From positions 1-20,437 of the IMG/VR virus record IMGVR_UViG_3300025012_000317: DNA of 20,437 nucleotides; one strand, given 5' to 3'. Positions 1,256 through 16,065 of this stretch are shown here, in pieces. The DNA comes from a virus. Under the pieces are notes generated by a model, which saw only the letters and a program-made list of their open reading frames with translations, had not been told where the DNA came from and did no database searches. How positions within the stretch are numbered: position 1 is the stretch's first letter; every line of letters starts with the position of its first letter. The position numbers and the translations under genes were made by a program.

Positions 1256-3598
1256 CTAACCTTGTAATCCGCATTGCGCCTCCGCTTTCTCGCGCTGTTT
1301 GTTGCGCCTGATTATTGAGTGAGTTATGAAATTCTTGACATCATCGGTGATCGGCCCGACCGCACCCCATTCAATCCCTGACGGTGGCTCAGTGCCGAAT
1401 TTGTTCTTGTACATCTTCAGGGCGGTCCCGAAACATCCCTTGCGGCCTGGTGTCCATCCCCGGTCCCTGCACCATTGATTCAACCCGGAAAGAAATTCCT
1501 GCTTTGCGGCAACGGTGTACTCTTTCCGTGCGGATTTACTCAGCTTCTCAAGTTCCCCTTCGTCGGTTTCGACATCCTCAGCAAAACTCGGTATCAGCCC
1601 ACAGGCAGGACATTTCCGCACCCCTGCCGGTTTCAGGAAGTCACAGGACGGGCAGCGTTTCGGCAATGGCTCATCTTTCTCGTCTGCTTTCTTCTTGTCG
1701 CTCTTGCCAGCTTTTTTCTTGCCATCATCAAGCACGGTCGGCAGTTGAGCATCGACAAACCCTAGCCGCTCGTGATTCCCTGCATGGTCCAATATCAGGC
1801 ACTGGGTTTTTCCATCAGCAACCCGCAACCCGCGCCCTACCTGCTGGATATGCACCATCAGACTTTTCGTCGGTCGGGCCTGGATGATGCAGGAAACTTC
1901 AGGATAATCAAAGCCCTTCGTGAGGATATCGACATTACAGAGTACCGTTGTCTCGCCGCTCTTGAACCTGCCGATTACATCAGCCCTTGACTCATCCTCT
2001 GCCAGTTTGCCGGTGTAGCAGTCGATATGATCAGCGGACACTCTGTGCTTCTGGAACTCCCGCACCAGATGCCGGGAATGCGCCCGATTGGTGGCAAAGC
2101 AGATGGTCTGCCGTCCTTTCCCCAGTTTCAGCCATGTCTCGACTATATCAGCAACGAGCTTCGGTTTGTCGGCACGTTCTCCTAGTTCCTGTGGGTCGAA
2201 GTCACCAGCAACGGTCTTAATACCAGATACATCAATCGTCTTCGGGCCGTATGCCTCAAAATCAGCTAGGTAGCCCTGGTCGATCAGGAAGCGGGTCGAT
2301 ACTGGATGTACCATTCCGTCAAAATGCTTGCCCATCCCCTTAGCGAAAGGCGTAGCACTCAACCCTACAACATGACCGTCATTCGCTCTCATCAGGTTGA
2401 TATGTGCCTGGTGGAGCGCATGACAATTGTGTACTGCTACACCATTAGCGAAGTAAGAAGGGTGTCCACTGACGTGAAGGTTGTATACAGTCTTATTGCC
2501 TCCTCGTTCGACAATCGAAACACTTTCCACCCTTTTGATGCCAAAAAGTCCATCTTCTTCTGGTCTTGTCCTCTTCTTGTCTCCGTAGTATGACTCACAC
2601 CATCTATTTCCACCCCTATCATTTTCCCTTTGTGGGCAATGTCCATTTTGTAACAAGTTGGATAACCTTGCCCATCCCCCCTCATCCCTGTGGCCACAGC
2701 CACCTCTGCCTCCCACCCTTCCCCTAGAGCATGAAGGAGGGCCAACTGTGGCAAAGGAAGCAAGCGCCCGTTCCCTCCTTGCTTTATAGGTCGATGTCGC
2801 ATTTCTTTCAGCCGCTTGCTCACCTTTAGTCTCACGCTGTGGTTGCTCATCGGGTTCTTCAATTTCTTCGCACACGATATCGAGCAGCATTCTTGCAATT
2901 TCCAAGTCTTTTCCGAGCAAACGTCCTCTTTCCCATCCCTGCCTATGCTCCTCCATGGGGTGAACGTCTTCCCACACCATACGCATTCCTTCGAGGCCGA
3001 AAGCGACCTGTCCGACCTCCAAGAGCCTTGCCTCTTTCCACCCTTCAGTTGTGAAAAACTTGTGACTTCCTGTACACTCTGTCTCAGTTCCATCCGTGAA
3101 CCTCACTTTGTAAGTTTCTGAAACTGAACGGCAAAAAACTTTTTTTACCGTTCCAGTCCCTATTTGGTTGTACACCTCATCCCCACACTGCAAGGAATCA
3201 ATAGTTTTATCTCCATTGGGGGTTGAAATGATTGTGCTTCCGACAAAACATTCATCAATTACCAACAGATCAAAGTTCATGATCTTCCGCCGCGCAAGGG
3301 TTTGGATACTGCATACCTGCACGGGCAATTCGGGGAAAAAGTATGGATGACTCGCCTGGATAACTCCGTGGTCAATATTGTCTTTGAAAAATCGTTCCGA
3401 GGTCTGGTTGATAAGTTCAATTCTATCGCAGACAAACAGACATTTCAGCCCCCTGGAAGATGCTTGCTGTATCATGTAACTCGCTATGTGGGTCTTGCCG
3501 CTGCCTGTCGGGAGCATGAGGACTTGTTTCTTGCCTGTGGTCCTGAACCCTTCCCGAACCGCTTGAATGGCCTGTGATTGGTAATCCCGTAGATTCAT
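1256..3598 (-). CDS. RadD-like SF2 helicase interrupted by an intein
   Basis: ATP-dependent SF2 DNA helicase, 780 residues as encoded and 505 after intein removal. Motifs: Walker A PTGSGKT (30-36); Walker B LLVIDE|CH, split at E116 by the intein and resuming at C392; motif III SATPF (414-418); motif VI QQVGRGLR (585-592). A four-Cys zinc finger follows at C649, C652, C663 and C666, and then a C-terminal domain with KMYKNKFG. This order matches the RadD/YejH family and its phage relatives, which act at replication forks and in repair. Start ATG 3598 has AGGAGA upstream and overlaps the primase stop by 4 bp, so the two replication proteins are coupled. Activity requires protein splicing, since the intein destroys the DECH box. 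Confidence 0.9.
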   Translation of the reverse strand: MNLRDYQSQAIQAVREGFRTTGKKQVLMLPTGSGKTHIASYMIQQASSRGLKCLFVCDRIELINQTSERFFKDNIDHGVIQASHPYFFPELPVQVCSIQTLARRKIMNFDLLVIDECFVGSTIISTPNGDKTIDSLQCGDEVYNQIGTGTVKKVFCRSVSETYKVRFTDGTETECTGSHKFFTTEGWKEARLLEVGQVAFGLEGMRMVWEDVHPMEEHRQGWERGRLLGKDLEIARMLLDIVCEEIEEPDEQPQRETKGEQAAERNATSTYKARRERALASFATVGPPSCSRGRVGGRGGCGHRDEGGWARLSNLLQNGHCPQRENDRGGNRWCESYYGDKKRTRPEEDGLFGIKRVESVSIVERGGNKTVYNLHVSGHPSYFANGVAVHNCHALHQAHINLMRANDGHVVGLSATPFAKGMGKHFDGMVHPVSTRFLIDQGYLADFEAYGPKTIDVSGIKTVAGDFDPQELGERADKPKLVADIVETWLKLGKGRQTICFATNRAHSRHLVREFQKHRVSADHIDCYTGKLAEDESRADVIGRFKSGETTVLCNVDILTKGFDYPEVSCIIQARPTKSLMVHIQQVGRGLRVADGKTQCLILDHAGNHERLGFVDAQLPTVLDDGKKKAGKSDKKKADEKDEPLPKRCPSCDFLKPAGVRKCPACGLIPSFAEDVETDEGELEKLSKSARKEYTVAAKQEFLSGLNQWCRDRGWTPGRKGCFGTALKMYKNKFGTEPPSGIEWGAVGPITDDVKNFITHSIIRRNKQREKAEAQCGLQG
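2426..3250 (-). mobile_element. Intein in the DECH box of the helicase, 275 aa
   Basis: The intein starts with Cys1 (CFVGST) and ends in VHN, followed by an extein Cys. Block A is CFVGSTIISTPNGDKTID; block B holds T60-G-S-H63; the C-terminal block F/G reads VYNLHVSGHPSYFANG followed by VAVHN. All residues needed for standard class 1 splicing are present (C1, T-x-x-H, terminal N, +1 C). Ligation restores LLVIDECHALHQAH, a perfect SF2 Walker B. Between block B and block F lie about 135 residues of low-information, Arg/Glu/Gly-rich sequence with no known endonuclease motif in this frame, yet without a stop. The nuclease is in the +1 frame instead (see the nested gene). The insertion sits in an invariant ATPase motif, as is typical of inteins. 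Confidence 0.92.
2437..3093 (-). CDS. Vsr/DUF559-like homing endonuclease nested out of frame
   Basis: A 218-codon ORF lies wholly inside the intein, in its +1 frame. ATG 3093 has a GAGGT site seven bases upstream; the stop sits a few codons before the intein end. Residues 37-74 form a C-x2-C...C-C-x3-C zinc finger (C37, C40, C69/C70, C74). Residues 148-194 show the PD-(D/E)XK pattern of the Vsr/DUF559 group: D151 in YKMDIA, VEIDGVSH (E162, D164, H168), D177 and K180, then FLASKGWKVFRL. I infer site-specific cleavage of intein-less helicase genes, meaning homing. No ATG, GTG or TTG lies in the stretch just before the zinc finger, so an alternative expression route would be a +1 frameshift out of the intein frame. 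The conserved motifs make a chance ORF unlikely. Confidence 0.82.
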   Translation of the reverse strand: MELRQSVQEVTSFSQLKGGKRQGSWRSDRSLSASKECVWCGKTFTPWRSIGRDGKEDVCSEKTWKLQECCSISCAKKLKNPMSNHSVRLKVSKRLKEMRHRPIKQGGNGRLLPLPQLALLHALGEGWEAEVAVATGMRGDGQGYPTCYKMDIAHKGKMIGVEIDGVSHTTETRRGQDQKKMDFLASKGWKVFRLSNEEAIRLYTTFTSVDTLLTSLMV

Positions 3599-4890
3599 GC
3601 GTATCTCCTAGCCGACCGCAACAGCAATTCAATCTCATGATCCGGCAAAGGGGGAGAGCAACCCTTGCCCCATTTCCACGCCTCAGACTCTACCTGATCC
3701 CAAGGCTTACGCCGCTTCACCATCCCGCCGACGAATTTCATCAGCCCATTATTCCGATTCCCTGCGACCGTCCCGTACTGCCCCTTATACTCGCTGTTCT
3801 CGTCGCTCTCGGTGTATCTCGGCTTTGACCATTGTTTCACCGGCTTAGGCGGGAATTTCGCTACCACTTCCGAGTAGTCAAGCGGTTCTTCGTAGCCTTC
3901 AAGGATTATACGGCTCAGGAACGCCTCACCCTTCTGATGCCAATAGCCGGGAACCCGCATCACCCGCGATGTGTCGTGAACCACCGGATCGCCGTTGAAC
4001 ATCTCCGCAAGTCGTTTCTGTGTGTCGCTGAATGCCTCAATCGGAAAGTCCTTGACGAACCAGTAACAGTGGAATTTACCTTGAGAAGTTTCAACCACCA
4101 TGTGCGGGTTGTGCTTTAACACCGGCTCAAGCGGGCTACCGTCAAGGTCAACGAATATCGCCCGGATTCTGGTTATGTTCTCCTTTCGCCTCCCCTTGCC
4201 GTCCGTCTCGTTCACGGTCAGGAATATGCCGCCGCCGTAATAGTTGATCTCCTCAAGTTTTGATGTGTCGTTATGGAATACCTTTGTGATACCGGGGCGT
4301 TTTTCCTTGCAGTCATCAAATGTTTGGAATGTCTTTATGCCAGGGAACCGGCTTAGGAACCTGGCTCGGTGCCGCTCGATTTCTTCCTGTGTCATGCCGT
4401 CCTCCGATGGTCGTTTTTCGGTAAACCCACCCCTTAGTAATCCCCTGGTAGATAGTGGGTAACATTTCACCATAGGTGGCAAAATGTCACTCTCGGTGAG
4501 ATGGTTGATTTTAGGGGCTTTGGTGGTTTCGGTGTGGCTAACTTGAGGTTTTTCAAGGGGTGTTTCATCATCGTCTCGCCGCCGATTATCCCAACCATAG
4601 AACACGTACTCACGCCCGACGATTTTCCCTGAATTATTTCTGACCAGTTCGATTCTCAGGACACCGAGCGAGATGAGAAACCTGATCGCGGCCTTCCACT
4701 TCCTCTCCCCGCAGCCGATGAATCTTTCCATCACATATTTTTTCCTGAAGATCCAACCGGTATTACTTTTCATCATGGCAAACATCCAGATTGATAAAGC
4801 CTCGATGTTACGTGCAAAAGATTCAAGTGCATCACCAGTCAGATAAAACCCGCTGGTTGTCTCGGTCCTTGCGCTGTAGTTATCGGCCAT
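3595..4890 (-). CDS. Winged-helix/RepB-type primase fusion protein
   Basis: Replication initiator/primase of 431 aa. Residues 10-100 look like a replication-protein winged helix (helices around 20-75, ending REYVFYGW), followed by a polar linker of about 60 residues. Residues 165-335 match a RepB-like archaeo-eukaryotic primase fold: GGGIFLTVNETDG, metal-binding FVDLD (D248, D250), the S-x-G-K-x-H motif around H274, and SRVMRVPGYWHQK. Residues 375-430 resemble the PriCT C-terminal domain (GNRNNGLMKFVGGMV; PDHEIELLLRSA). It probably recognises the origin and lays primers. Its stop overlaps the helicase start by 4 bp, and its start overlaps the HNH gene end by 11 bp. Domain assignment rests on motifs read by eye. 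Confidence 0.82.
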   Translation of the reverse strand: MADNYSARTETTSGFYLTGDALESFARNIEALSIWMFAMMKSNTGWIFRKKYVMERFIGCGERKWKAAIRFLISLGVLRIELVRNNSGKIVGREYVFYGWDNRRRDDDETPLEKPQVSHTETTKAPKINHLTESDILPPMVKCYPLSTRGLLRGGFTEKRPSEDGMTQEEIERHRARFLSRFPGIKTFQTFDDCKEKRPGITKVFHNDTSKLEEINYYGGGIFLTVNETDGKGRRKENITRIRAIFVDLDGSPLEPVLKHNPHMVVETSQGKFHCYWFVKDFPIEAFSDTQKRLAEMFNGDPVVHDTSRVMRVPGYWHQKGEAFLSRIILEGYEEPLDYSEVVAKFPPKPVKQWSKPRYTESDENSEYKGQYGTVAGNRNNGLMKFVGGMVKRRKPWDQVESEAWKWGKGCSPPLPDHEIELLLRSARRYA

Positions 4891-5422
4891 TGACGCTTGC
4901 CTTGATGAATCTTAGGGAGGTGGGGTTCTCGATGCACTCGGTATACTTGTATTTTACTTCAGCGTCATACCTAGCCTGCGCCGCACTTAAAACGTCTGGG
5001 AATCTGCCGAGGATAAGAGTTTTCCCATCACCCCTAATATGGGACAGCCATTTCCCCCGCTTTTCATCAAAGCAAACTCCATTAACCCCAGATGTGTTCC
5101 TTTTTTGCGCCCCCTTGTTCCTCATATTCGTTTTGGTATCGCACTCTCTGAGGTTTTTTATCCGGTTGTCTTGCTTGATTCTGTTGATATGGTCTGTTTG
5201 GACTGGCCAGACTCCGTAGTGAAAAAGCCACGCAAGCCGGTGAGCAAGGTAATAGCGGCCATTGTAGAATATCCTTATATACCCAGCCCCGCTTTTGCAC
5301 CCAACGATCTTCCCAAGTTTACCTTTCCCGTCTCCATCGCTTTTCCTATAGAAAAACCCAGTCTTAGGATTGTACCGGAATGCCGACATCAACTCTTCCC
5401 TGCTTGCTATCTCTCTTTTCAT
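4880..5422 (-). CDS. HNH homing endonuclease with AP2 domain (copy 1)
   Basis: A free-standing HNH endonuclease of 180 aa. The HNH core spans residues 61-92: H61-R62, then D77-H78-I-N80 and the DNRIKNLR segment. An AP2-like DNA-binding domain follows at about residues 110-160 (NTSGVNGVCFDEKRGKW to ARYDAEVKYKY). This HNH_3-AP2 order is typical of mobile nucleases that hop among phages. The frame extends five codons upstream to a TTG, but ATG 5422 has GGAGGGG just upstream and is preferred. It is preceded by a large structured leader with a terminator-like hairpin and overlaps the primase start by 11 bp, which suggests insertion into the operon. A paralogous architecture lies at 15487-16065. 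Confidence 0.88.
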   Translation of the reverse strand: MKREIASREELMSAFRYNPKTGFFYRKSDGDGKGKLGKIVGCKSGAGYIRIFYNGRYYLAHRLAWLFHYGVWPVQTDHINRIKQDNRIKNLRECDTKTNMRNKGAQKRNTSGVNGVCFDEKRGKWLSHIRGDGKTLILGRFPDVLSAAQARYDAEVKYKYTECIENPTSLRFIKASVNGR

Positions 5423-5433
5423 TGCCCCTCCAA

Positions 5434-5520
5434 ACAAAAAAATGACTTCCCACCAGGATAGGCACCCGTAGAGGAGAGAACCCCCTTTCCTTGCCTATCG
5501 GCCCCTGGTGAGAAGCCATT
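5434..5520 (-). ncRNA. Long structured RNA hairpin ending in U-run
   Basis: The arms 5441-5464 and 5492-5520 form a 24-bp helix interrupted by one 5-nt bulge (5499-5503), with a 27-nt apical region. On the minus strand every position pairs, two of them as G-U wobbles; on the plus strand those two would be A-C mismatches. The structure therefore favours a minus-strand RNA. Seven U residues follow the 3' arm (5436-5442), the form of an intrinsic terminator. It ends about 15 bases before the HNH start. With the candidate promoter at 5559-5585 it could be a small non-coding RNA, or an attenuator that isolates the HNH gene from upstream transcription. Confidence 0.6.
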
Positions 5521-6831: not shown

Positions 6832-7436
6832 CACGATACCTCTTGCAATTTCTTGACGATGGTTTCAAGTTCCTCTGAAAACCTCACAAGTTCCGCCTGC
6901 AATGCTGCATGAAATTTAGTATCAGGCTCGGCCTTGATCATCAGTGGTTTCATGCCAGGATAGTACGAGACAAACCACCAGTAGTCGCGTCCGGTTACAA
7001 ACATGCTGCCCTGAACCTGCTGGTAATATGTCGATGGAATTTTGCCAGTGAGAAGATAATCAACGTGGGTAGCAAGTTGTGGACACTTGATCTCAATCCC
7101 GCCATTGTCACCAATCAACCCGTCAGGACTGCACCCCCATCGTCCATCATCCTCGATACACAGACCAACCTCCTGAACTTCCGCGTCATGCAGCATACAG
7201 AAGAGAAGCCTTGCCTCTGCCTCCATCTCGATCCCTCTTGACATCGCCGCCGACTGGTATGATTCTTCCTTGCTGCCTGTAATTTTCTCCCCTGCCAGTT
7301 GGTAGAGGTACTTCGTCCGGCTCTTGCTTGGCTCTCCCTTAGTTGTGACTATCTCGGAAAACTTACTGGCGGTCGGCAGGCCAGCACGATATGACATCCA
7401 TTCAGGTGATCCCTGGTCAACATTGATTATCTTCAT
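6831..7436 (-). CDS. YqaJ-type phage exonuclease
   Basis: Lambda-Exo-like 5'-3' double-strand exonuclease of 201 aa, the family's normal length. Conserved blocks are GSPEWMSYRAGLPTASKF at the N-terminus, RGIEMEAEAR (E70), SPDGLIG (D105), IEIKCP (E115, K117), and YYQQVQGSMFVTGR with WWFVSYYPG. Together these give the PD-(D/E)XK active site D105/E115-x-K117 of the YqaJ/viral recombinase family. It resects DNA ends so that the annealing protein encoded directly upstream (4-bp overlap) can pair single strands. It is the core of a Red-like recombination system. Confidence 0.93.
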   Translation of the reverse strand: MKIINVDQGSPEWMSYRAGLPTASKFSEIVTTKGEPSKSRTKYLYQLAGEKITGSKEESYQSAAMSRGIEMEAEARLLFCMLHDAEVQEVGLCIEDDGRWGCSPDGLIGDNGGIEIKCPQLATHVDYLLTGKIPSTYYQQVQGSMFVTGRDYWWFVSYYPGMKPLMIKAEPDTKFHAALQAELVRFSEELETIVKKLQEVS

Positions 7437-8182
7437 GGCTTGACCAGTGGCTTTTGCATGACTGCCGCCATGATAGTAGGAAGTTTACCTTGAGGAATTT
7501 CGCTCAACGCGCCGACAGCCGCCACCTTTTCGACGTACTCCATGAACTTTTCCAGGATGACCCCCCTCGACCTCATTTCAGCTTCTAAAACGTCAAGCTG
7601 TTCAGAGGTAACAGGGTCCATATCAGGATTGCCGCCTCCAGGGCCTACAAGGCCACCTGACGCGTTTTCTGTGCCGCCCCCTTGTGATGGTATTAGTGAA
7701 CCAGGAGAAGCGTTCCAGCCGCCTATATGAAGCTCTCCTTTGTGCCACAGGTCAAGTGCCGCTCCGAAGCGCATTGCCGCGTTCCTGAGAGCATCGCCTA
7801 TCCGCTCCTTTGTAGCATTTGCGCCAGATTTGCCTTGTGCATCGCCGTAACCAAGGCGGGTCACTCCGCACACGGTCAGTTTGATCCACATACCGCCGTC
7901 TTTGTCGAGCACCGGATATCCATCTGGACCAACCGAAAGAAAGTCCCAACTCCAAAACGGGTCAACAGAGAGAAGCCTGTCAGTAATCGCTGCATGCCCC
8001 ACATAATCGAGATGGATTATTTTAGGATGATGCCAACCGCCACAGACTGAGCAATTCTTCTTATCTGAGGCAGGACACTCGTTTTGTGCCTTGGTGCCTT
8101 TCGGGAGTTTTGACACCTGATTCGGTAAAAAATCTTCCCTGAGTAACTTCAATCTTTCAACCGCTTCTTTTGGTTCCATCAT
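7433..8182 (-). CDS. Rad52-superfamily single-strand annealing protein
   Basis: A 249-aa protein. Residues 55-150 carry the conserved core of a phage annealing family: DYVGHAAITDRLL, DPFWSWDF, MWIKLTVCGVTRLGYGDA, and the hallmark ATKERIGDALRNAAMRFG near 123-140. The hallmark resembles the Rad52/Sak core helix. A C36/C44/C47/H51-52 cluster looks like a small zinc knuckle before the core. A Gly/Pro-rich linker (about 155-190) leads to a C-terminal helical tail. Its position next to a YqaJ exonuclease (4-bp overlap) supports a strand-annealing partner role. The starts at 8182 and 8179 are both possible. Functional assignment is family-level inference. Confidence 0.75.
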   Translation of the reverse strand: MMEPKEAVERLKLLREDFLPNQVSKLPKGTKAQNECPASDKKNCSVCGGWHHPKIIHLDYVGHAAITDRLLSVDPFWSWDFLSVGPDGYPVLDKDGGMWIKLTVCGVTRLGYGDAQGKSGANATKERIGDALRNAAMRFGAALDLWHKGELHIGGWNASPGSLIPSQGGGTENASGGLVGPGGGNPDMDPVTSEQLDVLEAEMRSRGVILEKFMEYVEKVAAVGALSEIPQGKLPTIMAAVMQKPLVKP

Positions 8183-9715: not shown

Positions 9716-10047
9716 TCCATCACCTCATTAGATTGTTCATGCCACACCACCGGCAACCGCCCCTTGCCCATCACTAACCAAGACCGCGTTTTGTCGAGAT
9801 GGCAGAGTAGGAGCCAGTGATTCTTCTTCGCGTTAGTCCGAGCCTGCTTGACAAACTCAGGCACATTGATCAACTTACAGTTCTTCACTTCCACCGACAC
9901 CACCCGACCGTCAGGGTCTTGGCACACCAGATCATCCGTGGACAACCCCGAACTTGTATCAGCCAATATCAGCCAATCGCGGGATGTGAGCAGGTCTTTA
10001 GCTGCACGTTCGCCGCGCTTTCCCTTGTCTCTAGAGGACTTGCCCAT
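9712..10047 (-). CDS. Hjc/RecB-like PD-(D/E)XK nuclease
   Basis: A 111-aa nuclease with the small PD-(D/E)XK layout. The motif GKRGERAAKDLL holds E13; STDDLV holds D39; VSVEVKN holds E53-x-K55; a later EFVKQA helix follows. This order (R-x-x-G-x-x-x-E, D, E-x-K) is that of Hjc-type Holliday-junction resolvases and related phage nucleases. It would resolve or trim recombination and replication intermediates. ATG 10047 is chosen because GGAGG lies five bases upstream and it sits in a TAATG overlap; a GTG two codons earlier is less well spaced. Whether the substrate is a Holliday junction is inference. Confidence 0.75.
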   Translation of the reverse strand: MGKSSRDKGKRGERAAKDLLTSRDWLILADTSSGLSTDDLVCQDPDGRVVSVEVKNCKLINVPEFVKQARTNAKKNHWLLLCHLDKTRSWLVMGKGRLPVVWHEQSNEVME

Positions 10048-10397
10048 TACCACCTCCCGTGATAATTCGGCTTGCTAAACATTATCTCTCCAGTCTCAAC
10101 CCAGTGATTCCAGTTTTTCCGCAAGGCATCCGAGTCGTACTCTGCCGTGCGCCCTGTTCTTTTATAGACAGACATTATGGACTCAGCGGAAATAGCGAAG
10201 TGGTGATATCTGTTGAACTCCACAAGTAAACATCCGCAGCACGTTTCTCTCCCGTTGTCAAAACTCCAAACCTTCGGGGTCTGCCCACAAAACGGACACT
10301 CATGCCAATCGCCTTCGGGTACTTTGTAAAAATCGAGGTCTACAAAGTCGTAACTAAAACTCTGGACTATCCCGAAATCTATTGCTTCAAGGTTCAT
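10047..10397 (-). CDS. Lar-like zinc-ribbon protein
   Basis: A 116-aa protein with CPFCGQTPKVWSFDNG and CCGC near residues 34-56, followed by a helical C-terminus containing ALRKNWNHWVE. The spacing and the trailing A-x3-W-N pattern resemble the Lar/restriction-alleviation-like zinc-ribbon family found in prophages. That role is possible but unproven here. The start is in an ATGA overlap with the upstream gene; the stop overlaps the nuclease ATG. Confidence 0.6.
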   Translation of the reverse strand: MNLEAIDFGIVQSFSYDFVDLDFYKVPEGDWHECPFCGQTPKVWSFDNGRETCCGCLLVEFNRYHHFAISAESIMSVYKRTGRTAEYDSDALRKNWNHWVETGEIMFSKPNYHGRW

Positions 10398-10711
10398 CCT
10401 ACCGCCCTCGTCAGTTCAGACACAGCGATGTAGAGATACTGATCAATCAGTGCGAGGTGCCGCTCGTAGTTCTCCTTGCAATCCAGGGGCTGGGAAGGTA
10501 CTCGCTTCGGGTTAGACTCGGACGCTGCCTTGAGGTTAGTAATAGTCCGCTTGATCGTATCGACAAGTTCAGCGTTGTGCTGCTCTACCGTCTTCATTTT
10601 CTCCGCTCTCTCTTCTGCGTTCAAACAATGGACGCATACCGTTCTGCCGTCTGCCTGGATATACATCAGGGAATTGTCCCACTGATTGCCGCATATTTCG
10701 CATCTGGTCAT
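10394..10711 (-). CDS. Zinc-binding hypothetical protein, 105 aa
   Basis: Begins MTRCEICGNQWDNSLMYI and continues to CVHCLNAEE, giving two C-x2-C pairs of a zinc ribbon in the first 30 residues. The rest is predicted helical (residues 30-100). ATG 10711 is chosen over in-frame ATG 10717 and an earlier codon because GGAGG lies seven bases before it and it forms an ATGA overlap with the preceding stop. The role is unknown; the fold suggests nucleic-acid or protein binding. Confidence 0.6.
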   Translation of the reverse strand: MTRCEICGNQWDNSLMYIQADGRTVCVHCLNAEERAEKMKTVEQHNAELVDTIKRTITNLKAASESNPKRVPSQPLDCKENYERHLALIDQYLYIAVSELTRAVG

Positions 10712-11421: not shown

Positions 11422-12138
11422 CTATTTTTTTGCTTTACGCCGTTCGATGTGTGCCTTATGAAGTTTTTTTATTGCAGCCTCAGACGCATTGGGGATTGAT
11501 AAAAACTTGGAGCAATCTATCGGATCATCACTCATCATCAAGTCAGACAGCAGATGGACTAACGACCAATTTATCTCGACCCCATTCTTGACCTTTTTGT
11601 CGAAAATGATGACAGGTTGTTCCTTGCAGCACAAATGACCAGAAGATTTGTCTATTGCGTTCCCGTAGCCGGTGTTCCTGTCGCCGGTGTTCCCGTCGCC
11701 GGTGTTCCTGTCGCCGGTGTTCCCGTAGCCGGTGTTCCTGTCGCCGGTGTTCCTGTCGCCGGTGTTCCTGTGGCCGGTGTTCCTGTCGCCGGTGTTCCCG
11801 TAGCCGGTGTTCCTGTCGCCGGTGTTCCCGTAGCCGGTGTTCCTGTCGCCATCAAACGAAACCTCTTCAACCAGTCGAATTTCCATGGCAACATGCTTCA
11901 AGTCTGCACCTGGGCCTTCACCTCGCATCACTCCCCGCGCCTCAACCTTGAATATCCTCGTACCGGCATCGCTGTAAAAAGACCACGGGCCAGACGGATA
12001 CTCACAGAAATGGAACCCACTCTCACACATTGCGATTTCGCCATTGTGCTTATGCCAAACCCCCAACTCAAACTGAAACCCACGGCATTGCATGTTCTTG
12101 TCGGTGGCCTTGAAACCTTTTACTATTTCGTCGGTCAT
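11422..12138 (-). CDS. Phage NTG-repeat protein (DUF7666-like N-domain)
   Basis: A 238-aa protein of three parts. Residues 1-95 form a domain with MQCRGFQFELGVWH and CESGFHFCEYP, resembling the N-terminal domain of phage proteins annotated DUF7666. Residues 100-159 are 12 tandem five-residue repeats N-T-G-[D/Y/H]-[R/G], which would fold as a short pentapeptide-like or beta-solenoid rod. Residues 160-238 form a helical, basic tail ending IERRKAKK. AAGGAG lies six bases before ATG 12138. Role unknown; such proteins are usually early-expressed and variable in repeat number. Domain naming is by memory of family sequences. Confidence 0.7.
   Translation of the reverse strand: MTDEIVKGFKATDKNMQCRGFQFELGVWHKHNGEIAMCESGFHFCEYPSGPWSFYSDAGTRIFKVEARGVMRGEGPGADLKHVAMEIRLVEEVSFDGDRNTGYGNTGDRNTGYGNTGDRNTGHRNTGDRNTGDRNTGYGNTGDRNTGDGNTGDRNTGYGNAIDKSSGHLCCKEQPVIIFDKKVKNGVEINWSLVHLLSDLMMSDDPIDCSKFLSIPNASEAAIKKLHKAHIERRKAKK
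11662..11841 (-). repeat. Twelve tandem 15-bp repeats encoding N-T-G-x-x
   Basis: The unit is AACACCGGCGACAGG with variation mainly in its last six bases (GACAGG, TACGGG, CACAGG). Twelve exact-length units run without interruption. NTGYG and NTGDR units alternate at the start and then become irregular. Because the unit is a multiple of three and very GC-regular, all neighbouring frames also stay open (VAGVP-like and TGTPA-like shadows). Such arrays change copy number by slippage without frameshift. Confidence 0.92.
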
Positions 12139-12148
12139 GTCACTCTCC

Positions 12149-12229
12149 TTAGATTTGCACTGCGAATGAGAAAATACATACCGCCATCGTCGCGGCGATT
12201 ACTAGGTAGGACAGGATTGAGTTAATCAT
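12149..12229 (-). CDS. 26-aa single-span membrane micro-protein
   Basis: The frame reads MINSILSYLVIAATMAVCIF plus six more residues ending VQI, one hydrophobic span with almost no loops. ATG 12229 overlaps the upstream stop (ATGA) and has AGGGGTG just before it. Its TAA stop is embedded in the ribosome binding site (TAAGGAG) of the NTG-repeat gene. The tight fit in an otherwise unexplained 90-bp gap supports a real gene. Role unknown. Confidence 0.55.
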   Translation of the reverse strand: MINSILSYLVIAATMAVCIFSFAVQI

Positions 12230-12477
12230 CTCACACCCCTAAGCCTTTCAGCCGACTTGCGCCCAGCGTCGAGGTCGGACGCTTCGATGGTGGAGTAATC
12301 ACGGTTCCGGTTTCGCTCGTTCATCCACTCTGCGATTGCTGCCGCTGAAAATTTATAGGTGCGGGGTCCGGTCTTGATGTATGGGAATCCTTCTTCCTCC
12401 ATCAATCTTTTGATCGTTGGATACGAAGACCCCATGTGTTTCTCGCATTGTTTGATGTTAATGATAATGTCGCTCAT
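12226..12477 (-). CDS. AlpA/MerR-like HTH, possible excisionase
   Basis: An 83-aa protein with an N-terminal HTH (residues 7-35, KQCEKHMGSSYPTIKRLMEE) and a wing GFPYIKTGPRTYKFSAAAIAEWM. This is the HTH_17/AlpA layout used by phage excisionases and small regulators. It is the second gene transcribed from the switch on the lytic side, where xis or cro/cII-like genes are expected. It overlaps its neighbours by 4 bp. Whether it excises the prophage or regulates the early operon cannot be told from sequence. Confidence 0.72.
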   Translation of the reverse strand: MSDIIINIKQCEKHMGSSYPTIKRLMEEEGFPYIKTGPRTYKFSAAAIAEWMNERNRNRDYSTIEASDLDAGRKSAERLRGVR

Positions 12478-12734
12478 TTCGTCACCTTCTTAGCTAGGAT
12501 TTTCTCTTCGCGCTGTTTTCTGAAGAATTTTCTTAACCGGATATCCAACCTGTCACGCGGTCCTGCTGACCACCCCCAGATAGATATCCCGCTGACTTCC
12601 GCCAACTTTGTATAACTCTCCATCGAGATTGAAAATTTGTCTGCCTTGGCTCTTGACACCGTTAATGGGCAGACTCCTGCCGCCTCCGCTAGACGGTTTT
12701 GACTTGTGATGAATTCCACTTGCTTGTTTTCCAC
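12474..12734 (-). CDS. Cro-like HTH regulator, first early gene
   Basis: An 86-aa protein starting at GTG 12734 behind GAGAGG. Residues 12-50 (NRLAEAAGVCPLTVSRAKAD, then FSISMESYTKLAEVSG) form a helix-turn-helix typical of Cro/CII-size regulators. The C-terminus is basic. It is the promoter-proximal gene of the lytic operon, directly opposite the repressor gene, and the inverted repeat TGTTAA-N13-TTAACA lies just upstream of its start. Position and size make it the Cro counterpart; a CII-like role remains possible. Confidence 0.72.
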   Translation of the reverse strand: MENKQVEFITSQNRLAEAAGVCPLTVSRAKADKFSISMESYTKLAEVSGISIWGWSAGPRDRLDIRLRKFFRKQREEKILAKKVTK

Positions 12735-12745
12735 GACCCCTCTCT

Positions 12746-12770
12746 TGTTAAATGGTTATCTGTATTAACA
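12746..12770. promoter_or_regulatory. Operator candidate TGTTAA-N13-TTAACA
   Basis: An inverted repeat with 6-bp perfect arms and 25 bp total, 12 bases upstream of the first lytic gene. The size fits a repressor dimer site, and binding here would cover the early leader or promoter. I could not find a convincing minus-strand sigma70 pair in this switch region; a TATAAT hexamer at 12897-12902 (minus) lacks a good -35. Confidence 0.45.
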
Positions 12771-12838
12771 ATTACAACCACCATTTGACGACAAAGTACC
12801 ACCATCGAAAACGCAACGCAATCACAATTTTCTTATGT

Positions 12839-12859
12839 GTTGACGTTACTGTTGACGTT
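12839..12859. repeat. Tandem GTTGACGTT repeats in the switch region
   Basis: GTTGACGTT occurs at 12839-12847 and 12851-12859, 12 bases apart, and a third TTGACG core lies at 12785-12790. They sit midway between the divergent regulators. They may be half-sites for a regulator bound on one helix face, or -35 elements. Confidence 0.4.
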
Positions 12860-12923
12860 TTTAATTGTTTGCATTGCTAAATAGTTGATCTTGCTTATTA
12901 TAAAAATAATGCAAAATTATCAC

Positions 12924-12951
12924 TTGACCTTCACGATAAGATAATTATAAG
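12924..12951 (+). promoter_or_regulatory. Candidate sigma70 promoter toward repressor (distal)
   Basis: TTGACC (12924-12929), 16-base spacer, TATAAG (12946-12951). Inverted arms AATTATC (12915-12921) and GATAATT (12940-12946) flank and overlap the promoter, giving a plausible operator. It would drive the repressor-integrase operon with a leader of about 65 bases. Confidence 0.5.
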
Positions 12952-12975
12952 ATTAAGTTGTTGTTTAAATCGTTG

Positions 12976-13003
12976 TTTACTTTACCTTGCTATGGTGTAT
13001 ACT
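12976..13003 (+). promoter_or_regulatory. Candidate sigma70 promoter toward repressor (proximal)
   Basis: TTTACT (12976-12981), 16-base spacer, TATACT (12998-13003). The transcript would start about 15 bases before the repressor ATG, leaving only a short GGGAG ribosome binding site. Two stacked promoters are common for phage repressor maintenance and establishment, but neither has been shown here. Confidence 0.5.
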
Positions 13004-13025
13004 TAAAACTCCGGGAGTCCCTGCT

Positions 13026-14135
13026 ATGGAACGTAAAAAAAAATCACAGGCTAAGGAAATGACAAGAGAAGAGGTTGGGTATTTCCTCGTTGGGGTACAA
13101 ACGACAATTGCCGAGAGAGGACTTGTGCAAAAAGATTTGGCACTCGAAGCTGGTGTCAGCCCTGAAAACTTCAGCAAGGTTCTCAATCGCCGCATCGGGT
13201 CATCCGCAAAGTACCGGAAAAAAATCTGTGATGCTCTTAGCGTAACCGTTGAAGAAATGGTGATGATCGGCAAGCCTACCCCCGAACCTCAACAGGAGGC
13301 CACTAAATTCCCGGTGGCGATCCCCAAAGATTACCTTCCCGCTGATGAGGTGGCGCAATACGTAGCCAGAGTGTCTACCTCTTTATTAGATATATCTGCT
13401 TCTTATTCTAAAATAGACGCCCGTTTAAAATATTGGCAGCAACTTTTTGAGACTATGCCAGTTCCTGTGGTCGTTCTTAGAGACGGGTTGGTTTATAATC
13501 AGAACCGGCGCAGCAGGGCGATCTGGGATGGTTTGGGCCGGTCGCTGTGTTCAGGGTGTCGAGACGAGAAGTGCAAGGAGTACGACTGCAATATCAAGGA
13601 CGCAATTGATAAGGGGAAAGACATCGAAGTTTACAAGATGATCGGGGACGATTACTACAAAGTAATAGCAACTCATTTTTCAGCGAATAACCATGAATAC
13701 ACGACAATTGTTATTACCCCGATTGCTGAATGTAAAACAGCTATGGAAAAACTTACTCAACTTGCCGACGAGCGGGCATTCCTCGAAAGCAATCAATATG
13801 AGGCGGCAGAATACTACGCTGATGCAAATCGCCGCGTGAGTTACTGCAACCATGCATTTCTTCGACTATTTGAGATTGAACGCGACGACATAAAAACGAC
13901 CGACGACTTTCATATTCTTTTGTCAAGGAAACTTTTCTACTTCCAGCACGTAGCGAAAGCAGCAGACGAGGTTCGTATGTCTAAGAAACCGGCAGAAGTG
14001 GTGGCAAAGTTGACGAACAATAAGACGGTCCATTTCATATTCAAACCACATCTCAAGGACGGAGAACTGCAAGGGGTGATGGTGATGGTATTAACCCCTG
14101 AGTTATACGAGGCATTCAACGGAGGTGAAAAATGA
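13026..14135 (+). CDS. XRE-family repressor with PAS-like sensor domains
   Basis: Likely lysogeny repressor, 369 aa. Residues 15-80 form an XRE helix-turn-helix (RGLVQKDLALEAGVSPENFS, then KVLNRRIG). A linker leads to a PAS-like domain from about 135 to 235: FETMPVPVVVLRDGLVY, then the cluster C175-x2-C178-x4-C183-x4-C188, then YYKVIATHFSANNHEYTTIV. A second PAS-like segment spans about 255-362 (ADANRRVSYCNHAFLRLFEI). No LexA/CI-type S24 Ser-Lys protease is seen, so induction by RecA-stimulated cleavage is unlikely; ligand, redox or metal sensing is inferred. ATG 13026 is preferred to 12987 because the HTH alignment begins after it and the proximal promoter overlaps 12987. It overlaps the integrase start by 4 bp. 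Confidence 0.8.
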   Translation: MERKKKSQAKEMTREEVGYFLVGVQTTIAERGLVQKDLALEAGVSPENFSKVLNRRIGSSAKYRKKICDALSVTVEEMVMIGKPTPEPQQEATKFPVAIPKDYLPADEVAQYVARVSTSLLDISASYSKIDARLKYWQQLFETMPVPVVVLRDGLVYNQNRRSRAIWDGLGRSLCSGCRDEKCKEYDCNIKDAIDKGKDIEVYKMIGDDYYKVIATHFSANNHEYTTIVITPIAECKTAMEKLTQLADERAFLESNQYEAAEYYADANRRVSYCNHAFLRLFEIERDDIKTTDDFHILLSRKLFYFQHVAKAADEVRMSKKPAEVVAKLTNNKTVHFIFKPHLKDGELQGVMVMVLTPELYEAFNGGEK

Positions 14136-15238
14136 GTGCGATAGTACGGGAGAAACCCAAAGGTTCAGGCACATGGTACGTTTTTGTCAATGACAACGGC
14201 CACCGACGAGCAGCCAAGATGCCCAACCGCCGCACCGCCGAGGTGATTGCAAAGGAAATCAACGCTGAGATGATCGCCGGGAAATTCAATCTCGGTACTA
14301 AGGAGGCGGGAACGGTGCGGGAGTATGCTGAACGGTGGATGGAACACTCTACGGTCAAACCAGCTACCCGCAGCAATTACCAATCAATCCTGACCACCCA
14401 CATCTACCCCAAGTTTGCCGATAAGCCGGTTGACCAGATCAAGCGGGGAGATGTAAAAGACTTTTTGAAGAAGAAGATCAAGGATGGATTGAGCCTGTCC
14501 ACGGCCAAGAATATCAAGGCGGCACTCTACAACATTTTTGAGACTGCCCTGGACGATGAGGCTATCCCCTCAAACCCTGCAAGTCGGGTCGGTGAGTTGG
14601 TAGCGAGGAATCAGAAGGCGCACACTACCGGCAAGGCTGGATTCTTCACGCCGGAAGAATTGACTAAATTGTTAAACGCTTTCCTCAAGTATCGACCGCA
14701 ACACTACTTGCTTGCGTTGTTATTGGCACGTACAGGCATGAGGGTTGGTGAAGCTGTAGCTTTGCAATGGCGGGACTGCAACTTTGACACTAAACAGATA
14801 TCAGTGAGACGGGCGAAGTCGCGGACGGTCATCGACACTACCAAATCAGGCAAGGATAGACTGATAGATATGAGTGACCAGTTAGCCTCCGAATTGAGGA
14901 AGAAGCGCACCGAGGCAGTGTCCGACTCACTCAGAACGGGGCGAAGGTCAGACTATATATTCGTCGGCAGGACAAGTGCGACACTCGACCCGACTGCGTG
15001 GCGTAAGCGCAACTTCGATCCGATGTGTGAAAAGGCGGGGCTGGGGAAAAGGTTGGTTAAGGATCTCCGGCATACTTACGCATCGTTACTCCTGTACCAC
15101 GGCAAGTCGCTGAAATATGTGCAGCAGCAACTCGGACATCACTCTATCAAGATTACGGCAGACACGTACTCGCACCTCATCAAGAACCCGGATCATGGGA
15201 CTGTTAATGTGCTGGACGATGTAGTGAGTGGGGAGTAG
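14132..15238 (+). CDS. int: Tyrosine-recombinase phage integrase
   Basis: Site-specific integrase of 368 aa. The N-terminal arm-binding domain (about 1-55, GSGTWYVFVNDNGHRRAAKM) is followed by a SAM-like core-binding domain (about 60-155) and the catalytic domain (about 170-360). Active-site residues are R204 (ARTGMRVGEAVAL), K238, R313 (DLRHTYAS), H336 (LGHHS) and nucleophile Y346 (ADTYSHL). The usual first His of the H-x-x-R box is a Lys here (K310). ATG 14132 has GGAGGTG upstream and overlaps the repressor stop, so repressor and integrase are co-translated. attP lies about 80 bp downstream, the standard arrangement. Confidence 0.95.
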   Translation: MSAIVREKPKGSGTWYVFVNDNGHRRAAKMPNRRTAEVIAKEINAEMIAGKFNLGTKEAGTVREYAERWMEHSTVKPATRSNYQSILTTHIYPKFADKPVDQIKRGDVKDFLKKKIKDGLSLSTAKNIKAALYNIFETALDDEAIPSNPASRVGELVARNQKAHTTGKAGFFTPEELTKLLNAFLKYRPQHYLLALLLARTGMRVGEAVALQWRDCNFDTKQISVRRAKSRTVIDTTKSGKDRLIDMSDQLASELRKKRTEAVSDSLRTGRRSDYIFVGRTSATLDPTAWRKRNFDPMCEKAGLGKRLVKDLRHTYASLLLYHGKSLKYVQQQLGHHSIKITADTYSHLIKNPDHGTVNVLDDVVSGE

Positions 15239-15244
15239 GGGCTT

Positions 15245-15270
15245 TGCAACCTTGCGCAACGGAATGCAAC
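15245..15270 (+). promoter_or_regulatory. Candidate integrase arm sites, int side
   Basis: Three CAAC ends occur at exactly 10-bp spacing (15247-15250, 15257-15260, 15267-15270), each preceded by TGC, GCG or ATG, with TGCAAC at 15245-15250 and 15265-15270. One helical turn between sites and a position 50-75 bp from the core fit arm-type binding by the integrase N-domain. This is inference. Confidence 0.4.
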
Positions 15271-15281
15271 TGGAAAAATAA

Positions 15282-15312
15282 AAAGGGTTCTCAGATTGCT
15301 CTGGAACCCTTT
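15282..15312 (+). terminator. Intrinsic terminator after integrase, bidirectional
   Basis: AAAGGGTTC (15282-15290) pairs perfectly with GAACCCTTT (15304-15312) around a 13-base loop, followed by TTGTTTT on the plus strand. On the minus strand the 3' arm is followed by TTTATTTTTCC, so it can also stop convergent transcription from the HNH side. It lies between int and the attP core. Confidence 0.85.
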
Positions 15313-15319
15313 GTTTTAC

Positions 15320-15366
15320 TGGAGCCAATAAGGGGACTCGAACCCCTGACCTACTGGTTACGAAAG
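15320..15366 (-). other. attP core: 3' portion of tRNA-Thr(CGT)-like gene
   Basis: Read on the minus strand, this stretch gives the anticodon loop TTCGTAA, the 3' half of the anticodon stem, an AGGTC variable loop, a perfect T-arm (AGGGG-TTCGAGT-CCCCT), acceptor strand TATTGGC, discriminator T and CCA. No D-arm or matching GCCAATA 5' strand lies upstream, and the 5' anticodon stem pairs only in part, so it is not a functional tRNA. It is the identity block by which the phage would integrate and rebuild the host tRNA. Assignment to Thr rests on anticodon CGT. Confidence 0.85.
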
Positions 15367-15437
15367 AGTTGTCCTTATTTCGGCTACTTATAATATCAAG
15401 CGGTTACGTGTTCAGGCAAATCACTTATATTGTTAGG

Positions 15438-15477
15438 AATCTGCCACTTTCTTGACTAATCTGCAACTATTTACAAC
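15438..15477 (+). promoter_or_regulatory. Candidate integrase arm sites, distal side
   Basis: AATCTGCCAC (15438-15447) and AATCTGCAAC (15458-15467) are near-identical and 20 bp apart, and CAAC recurs 10 bp later at 15474-15477. The TGCAAC core is the same as on the integrase side of attP. TTGACT also occurs three times in and just after this stretch. The rest of 15367-15486 holds no gene. Confidence 0.4.
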
Positions 15478-15486
15478 CAAATTGAC

Positions 15487-16065
15487 TCAGATTGACTTGT
15501 TAGGAACCAATGCGGCAATTTTCTTTTTTACCCAATCCTCACCCTTCTGTGAGACGAGATAATTGTATGCTGTAGAGTCTTCGTTGCACTCGTTCCACCC
15601 TACTTCTACCTCACTCTCAAATCTGATCATCACCGCAGTTATTTTGTCGTTAAACAGGCCAAGGTTTACGCCTTTGTTGTCCACTTTTATTTGTGCACAC
15701 CACTTGCCGCTTCGCTTGTCATAGTGAACACCCCTAATCCCAGACGTATTCTTGACAGACACTAATGAATTGCGGAGATTGCATTGCTGAGACACTTCTC
15801 TCAGGTTCTCTATCCTGTTATCGTCTCTTATGTGGTTGATATGGTCAATCCCCTTTTCGGGGAGATACCCATGATGCCAAAGCCAAACTACACGGTGAAC
15901 CCTGTATTCTTTCTTGTCAATCTTAACCAGCACATACCCTTCGTTATGCCGTCTTGTTATGACCTCCCCTTCCCTCGCAGTGGGACTGGCACTCACCCTC
16001 CGCACCAGCACACCATCTTCCCGATAATCGAACAACTCCCGGACTCTTTCCTGCGTCAGTTTCAT
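15487..16065 (-). CDS. HNH homing endonuclease with AP2 domain (copy 2)
   Basis: A 192-aa nuclease with the same architecture as the gene at 4880. The HNH core has H57-R58, then D74-H75-I-N77 and DDNRIENLRE (81-90). The AP2-like domain at about 110-160 reads NTSGIRGVHYDKRSGKWCAQ to ESEVEVGW. ATG 16065 has GAGGTG two bases upstream. It lies immediately beside attP, convergent with the integrase, and is last in the small minus-strand cluster. Sequence divergence from copy 1 is large outside the motifs, which suggests separate acquisition rather than recent duplication. Its target is unknown. Confidence 0.88.
   Translation of the reverse strand: MKLTQERVRELFDYREDGVLVRRVSASPTAREGEVITRRHNEGYVLVKIDKKEYRVHRVVWLWHHGYLPEKGIDHINHIRDDNRIENLREVSQQCNLRNSLVSVKNTSGIRGVHYDKRSGKWCAQIKVDNKGVNLGLFNDKITAVMIRFESEVEVGWNECNEDSTAYNYLVSQKGEDWVKKKIAALVPNKSI

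Follow-up and report, generated by a model that had tools for sequence, protein, structure and literature searches.

A probable phage lysogeny repressor with an XRE DNA-binding domain and predicted tandem PAS domains

The gene at 13026-14135 of a 20.4-kb bacterial virus record of uncultured origin (the whole 20,437-nucleotide stretch that was analysed, hereafter the window) encodes a protein that is almost certainly an XRE DNA-binding protein and very probably carries two PAS domains. Position and helix-turn-helix class together make it a probable, still putative, lysogeny repressor, and we somewhat favour the reading in which the state of this repressor is set via the tandem PAS domains instead of by RecA-stimulated self-cleavage. 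The usual phage repressors carry a self-cutting domain that responds to DNA damage, and induction is mostly modelled as a matter of DNA damage and RecA. That host cues can drive lysis is already known from phage receptors for quorum signals; if our reading is true, a repressor with a built-in sensor would be such a switch in its simplest form, induction of the prophage by redox or metabolite cues could be tested directly, and the phage encoding this protein may wake on a chemical or redox cue.

A sequence-only reading of this DNA had proposed a gene at these positions, and it is confirmed: the frame is open throughout on the forward strand and yields 369 residues, arranged as an N-terminal XRE domain, a first PAS domain (PAS1), a short linker and a second PAS domain (PAS2) (Table 1). 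An alternative in-frame TTG is present at 12987; because it sits 5′ of a promoter-like -10 element (TATACT) and of a GGGAG stretch resembling a ribosome site, we prefer the ATG at 13026 as the start.

Table 1. Features of the repressor region, with positions in the window; residue numbers are those of the 369-residue protein.
Feature	Position	Strand	Basis
Excisionase/HTH-like gene, leftward early operon	12226..12477	-	phrog_668 HTH E 1e-8, phrog_66 excisionase E 1e-6; 62% identical in L002
Cro/CII-like small regulator, divergent from repressor	12474..12734	-	phrog_725 CII-like E 0.0013
Divergent control region, 33% GC	12735..13025	.	inverted repeats and spaced direct repeat; operators putative
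Promoter-like site for repressor-int operon, TTTACT-16-TATACT	12976..13003	+	consensus match only
XRE-PAS-PAS regulator of 369 aa (probable lysogeny repressor)	13026..14135	+	ORF, Pfam, PHROG, synteny with L002:4598-5659
XRE/Cro-CI-type helix-turn-helix, residues 12-82	13059..13271	+	Pfam HTH_26, PHROGs, model Z up to 10.9
PAS1, residues ~128-236	13407..13733	+	PAS_8 stretch 13431-13490, model topology, PDB matches, 58% identity to L002
Cys-rich loop of PAS1: C175, C178, C183, C188	13548..13589	+	exact spacing; C178, C183, C188 common to L002
Helical linker PAS1-PAS2, residues 237-256	13734..13793	+	model helix 239-254
PAS2, residues ~257-361	13794..14108	+	sub-threshold PAS_8, PAS, PAS_9, PAS_10, PAS_4 on isolated domain; 54% identity to L002
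Tyrosine integrase	14132..15238	+	phrog_1 E 3e-68; 96% identical integrase in L002

Three lines of evidence agree with the N-terminal XRE helix-turn-helix (HTH) that had been seen earlier. Pfam HTH_26 matched the N-terminus at E 3.7e-4 (21.1 bits, slightly below the cut-off of 22), the PHROG matches were to transcriptional regulators and repressors (phrog_8 at E 8e-7), and a model of the N-terminus aligned with XRE structures, the P22 c2 and 434 repressor domains included. The product therefore has the Cro/CI-type HTH by which XRE regulators are recognised, and this HTH is closest to those of phage repressor families.

The surroundings of the gene are those of an immunity region. The integrase ATG shares 4 bp with the stop of the repressor gene (ATGA), in keeping with the coupling to int that had been noticed from the sequence. 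On the other side, beyond the small divergent regulator and the excisionase-like gene, the leftward block continues with matches to a resolvase, NinB, an HNH endonuclease, single-strand annealing protein, exonuclease, SSB, primase and helicase. Temperate phages usually have their immunity region and early operon laid out in this way, and no second repressor candidate was seen among the window proteins scanned. The proposed operators fared less well, since the inverted repeats named for them (12746-12770 and 12915-12946) do exist, at 12745-12771 and 12915-12946, but are no better than those of shuffled sequence. The same control region also holds a direct repeat, TGTTGACGTT, at 12838 and 12850, with a 12-bp spacing.

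One relative was found, in the contig L002 of an independent phage, which was reached via the integrase. There, a 353-residue homologue (L002:4598-5659) occupies the same position beside the integrase gene, with the same 4-bp overlap. The two proteins are only 31% identical in the HTH, as compared to 58% in PAS1 and 54% in PAS2, and the small divergent HTH gene of L002 (4100-4291) is different from that of the window. DNA similarity resumes only at 14004, near the repressor 3′ end, and holds at 87% through int to 16168 (L002:5528-7693); so sharp a step from a diverged repressor to an int region of 87% identity suggests that a recombination boundary lies close to where the repressor gene ends. 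The weaker conservation of the HTH than of the PAS domains, together with the differing small HTH gene, fits a change of immunity specificity in which the sensor half would have been kept, a pattern drawn from two sequences since one relative was found. With respect to the control regions, both phages have a direct repeat of 9-10 bp with a 12-bp start-to-start distance (12838-12859 in the window and L002:4395-4415); the sequences differ, and it is only in the window that the repeat rises, weakly, above shuffled sequence.

A third phage contig, L009, shares a resolvase-like gene with the window (70% identical protein) and has a plain XRE regulator of 121 residues (L009:6001-6366). This small repressor is likewise of the XRE type and gives the same PHROG matches, but it lacks PAS domains and lies with another integrase, differently placed relative to the regulator. 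A sensing domain is thus not required in this phage group. Broader searches with the repressor returned little more: tblastn gave HTH matches only among phages and none among plasmids, and scans with exact 7-8-residue peptides, which miss distant relatives, found the protein only in L002 among viral contigs and nowhere among bacterial and archaeal species genomes. No tRNA was found in the window, and the matches that point to a host are all distant.

The PAS assignment draws on both profile and structural matches. Over the whole protein, PAS_8 (PF13188) scored 28 bits against a cut-off of 21.8, in two stretches, one per PAS region (residues ~136-155 and ~265-296). When cut out alone, PAS2 weakly matched five PAS families and PAS1 a single one, all below cut-off. 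AlphaFold models were of low confidence both for the full-length protein (mean pLDDT 49) and for PAS1 alone (pLDDT 46, pTM 0.43), and the latter has the element order of a PAS domain, namely an N-cap helix, two strands, helices and three strands. Foldseek searches with the PAS1 model returned mainly PAS/LOV domains (probabilities up to 1.00, E-values no better than 0.011), while with VIA-align all 50 of the 50 best PDB entries were PAS/LOV domains (Z 7.1-8.1, 75-103 residues aligned); a single Z in this range is little proof, and it is the uniform list that carries more weight. The uniformity of these 50 entries and the PAS_8 result make the assignment likely, and the resemblance to LOV domains is one to PAS in general. 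The two PAS-like regions of the sequence-only reading are thereby supported, as is, for PAS1, the PAS fold for which a structure prediction had been suggested as a check. The poor full-length model had as its first Foldseek match PpsR, a multi-PAS HTH repressor, and the best viral structure match was A0A8S5NZU2, a protein of 305 residues from Myoviridae sp. ctLnO19. A PDB sequence search with the repressor gave no PAS match, and a profile comparison of PAS1 with PAS2 was not significant.

A self-cleaving domain, on the other hand, was not detected. Pfam returned no S24 family at E up to 10, in agreement with the earlier remark that no Ser-Lys autoprotease is visible, and the C-terminal half is instead PAS. 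No AG or CG cleavage dipeptide lies in the linker between domains of either the repressor or the L002 homologue; indeed, the sole AG of the repressor is inside the HTH (residue 42) and the homologue has none. Similarly, no HExxH protease gene of the ImmR/ImmA or DdrO/IrrE type was found near 12000-15500 in frames of at least 80 aa, the only two matches being at ~220 and ~970.

On our favoured reading, the XRE domain would bind operators between the repressor gene and the divergent Cro/CII-like gene, and the bound repressor would keep the leftward early operon off, with its regulator, excisionase-like, recombination and replication genes, while the repressor gene would be co-transcribed with that for the integrase. 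The two tandem PAS domains would take the place of an S24 self-cleaving domain and most likely provide both dimerisation and input. The signal would be a change in PAS1, PAS2 or both, such as a small molecule or cofactor bound there or an altered state of the PAS1 Cys-rich loop, and would pass via helical segments to the HTH, so that DNA binding is released or strengthened. Prophage induction would thereby be tied to host physiology and not directly to RecA. Gene order, the HTH, the lack of a detected S24 domain and the conserved PAS half beside a diverged HTH are observations, and the PAS folds are well supported. We infer the repressor role, the allosteric sensing and what the signal is; an input by ligand, cofactor or redox change is proposed because PAS domains do so elsewhere, for example in NreB, WalK and PpsR, and we consider input through a PAS-bound signal, still putative, a little better than an even prospect.

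Known systems resemble this arrangement in part. The protein is like CI/LexA-type (XRE plus S24) repressors in its XRE HTH, its location upstream of int and its divergence from a Cro-like gene, and differs in having tandem PAS domains and no detected S24 domain or AG/CG dipeptide. Among phages, the nearest precedent is the quorum-sensing receptor VqmA of phage VP882, which has PAS and DNA-binding domains and brings about lysis by inducing the antirepressor Qtip, while the cI repressor is a separate protein (PMC12802170). Both are phage proteins that combine PAS and DNA-binding domains, and VqmA links lysis to a host signal; however, the PAS domains described here are fused to an XRE protein in the repressor position. 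PpsR/CrtJ of purple bacteria is likewise a one-component multi-PAS DNA-binding repressor, which responds to redox (PMC3949515), but it is chromosomal, has a C-terminal HTH and three PAS domains, and no sequence relationship to the 369-residue protein was seen. A repressor that itself carries PAS domains was not found in the open-access literature searched, which is no proof that none has been described.

The PAS domains might alternatively serve for dimerisation or oligomerisation only, as a substitute for the C-terminal domain that gives CI its cooperativity, with derepression by an antirepressor or by lost synthesis and no ligand or redox input. We regard this as possible but unlikely. The PAS domains of PpsR and their helical extensions do drive oligomerisation (PMC3949515), phage VP882 can be induced independently of DNA damage through an antirepressor (PMC12802170), L009 copes with a PAS-less XRE protein and, as described below, none of the cofactor motifs checked is present. 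The 54-58% identity of the PAS cores as compared to 31% for the HTH may exceed what a dimer interface alone would require, which argues weakly against this alternative, with two sequences to compare.

A second alternative, in effect a special case of the favoured reading, is a metal or redox switch in which C178, C183, C188 and C236 coordinate Zn or an Fe-S cluster, or pair in disulfides, and the repressor responds to oxygen, NO, sulfide or redox state. The four-Cys cluster on which the earlier interpretation was built is exact in its spacing (C175-x2-C178-x4-C183-x4-C188), and four Cys within 14 residues have a chance of only ~0.002 per 369-residue protein. It did not survive as a cluster, however, since C175 is replaced in the L002 homologue, and the Cys shared in the PAS1 region are C178, C183, C188 and C236, the last of these at the end of PAS1 (codon 13731-13733). 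Sharing four of five PAS1-region Cys at 58% domain identity is about what that identity predicts (binomial p ~0.3, hand calculation), so that Cys conservation alone is no argument for a metal site, and no coordinates place C236 near the Cys loop. Motif checks of the repressor for the NreB-type Fe-S motif C-x2-C-x(10-13)-C-x2-C, the c-type haem motif CxxCH and the LOV flavin-adduct Cys in GxNCR found none of the three. Cys-loop PAS domains may also be a common host type. A PAS consensus that includes a Cys loop, composed after reading the repressor, scored PAS1 at 11 SD above shuffles; the consensus is a real PAS domain by its PDB matches, and we take this score as a lead only. With its poor sensitivity in the phage scan, the same consensus found PAS domains in only 3 of 50,697 phage records, and two of these may be host contamination. 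Precedents for such chemistry do exist, as the PAS domain of NreB holds a [4Fe-4S] cluster and that of WalK holds Zn (PMC8534201), in addition to the redox response of PpsR (PMC3949515). NreB is similar in that Cys of a cytoplasmic PAS domain could form a cofactor site, but its Cys spacing differs, it is a histidine kinase, and a cluster in the repressor would be putative. We regard a Cys- or metal-based input as possible but unlikely. The fuller proposal, an immunity repressor that senses oxygen, redox or metal/Fe-S directly via its PAS Cys as a one-protein environmental switch without RecA, is more doubtful still. What stands of the sequence-only reading is the repressor position, the XRE HTH, the tandem PAS domains and the lack of autoprotease signs, whereas the four-Cys cluster as such and the operator sites do not.

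Least probable is that the protein regulates integrase or excision, or is an accessory regulator, with the true immunity repressor outside the 20-kb fragment: its gene does share an operon with int, and the record, which is linear without end repeats, may be a fragment, but the repressor gene lies directly opposite the divergent Cro/CII-like gene and the early operon, as is standard for an immunity region, and what the two phages have conserved is int and the excisionase-like gene, whereas their HTH and small divergent HTH gene differ.

Other features of these contigs were also noted. The window contains HNH endonuclease genes at 4880-5437 and 15487-16065 (phrog_99), and similar-looking HNH frames are present in L002 at 1298-1846 and 7012-7590, the 15487-16065 copy occupying a site, downstream of int, that both phages have in common. 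A DUF7666 protein encoded on the reverse strand at 11422-12138, and at L002:2656-3432, has NTGDRNTGYG pentapeptide-like repeats that differ in number between the two (238 as compared to 258 residues). L002 also encodes an alpha/beta-hydrolase related to DUF3141 (9746-10678). In the window, the superfamily-2 helicase frame at 1256-3598 (reverse strand) includes an intein (Intein_splicing, 40 bits against a cut-off of 35.8), within which a nested frame at 2437-3093, on the same strand in another frame, encodes a DUF559 endonuclease-like domain (28.1 bits against 20.6), an unusual arrangement in that the endonuclease gene is out of frame within the intein.
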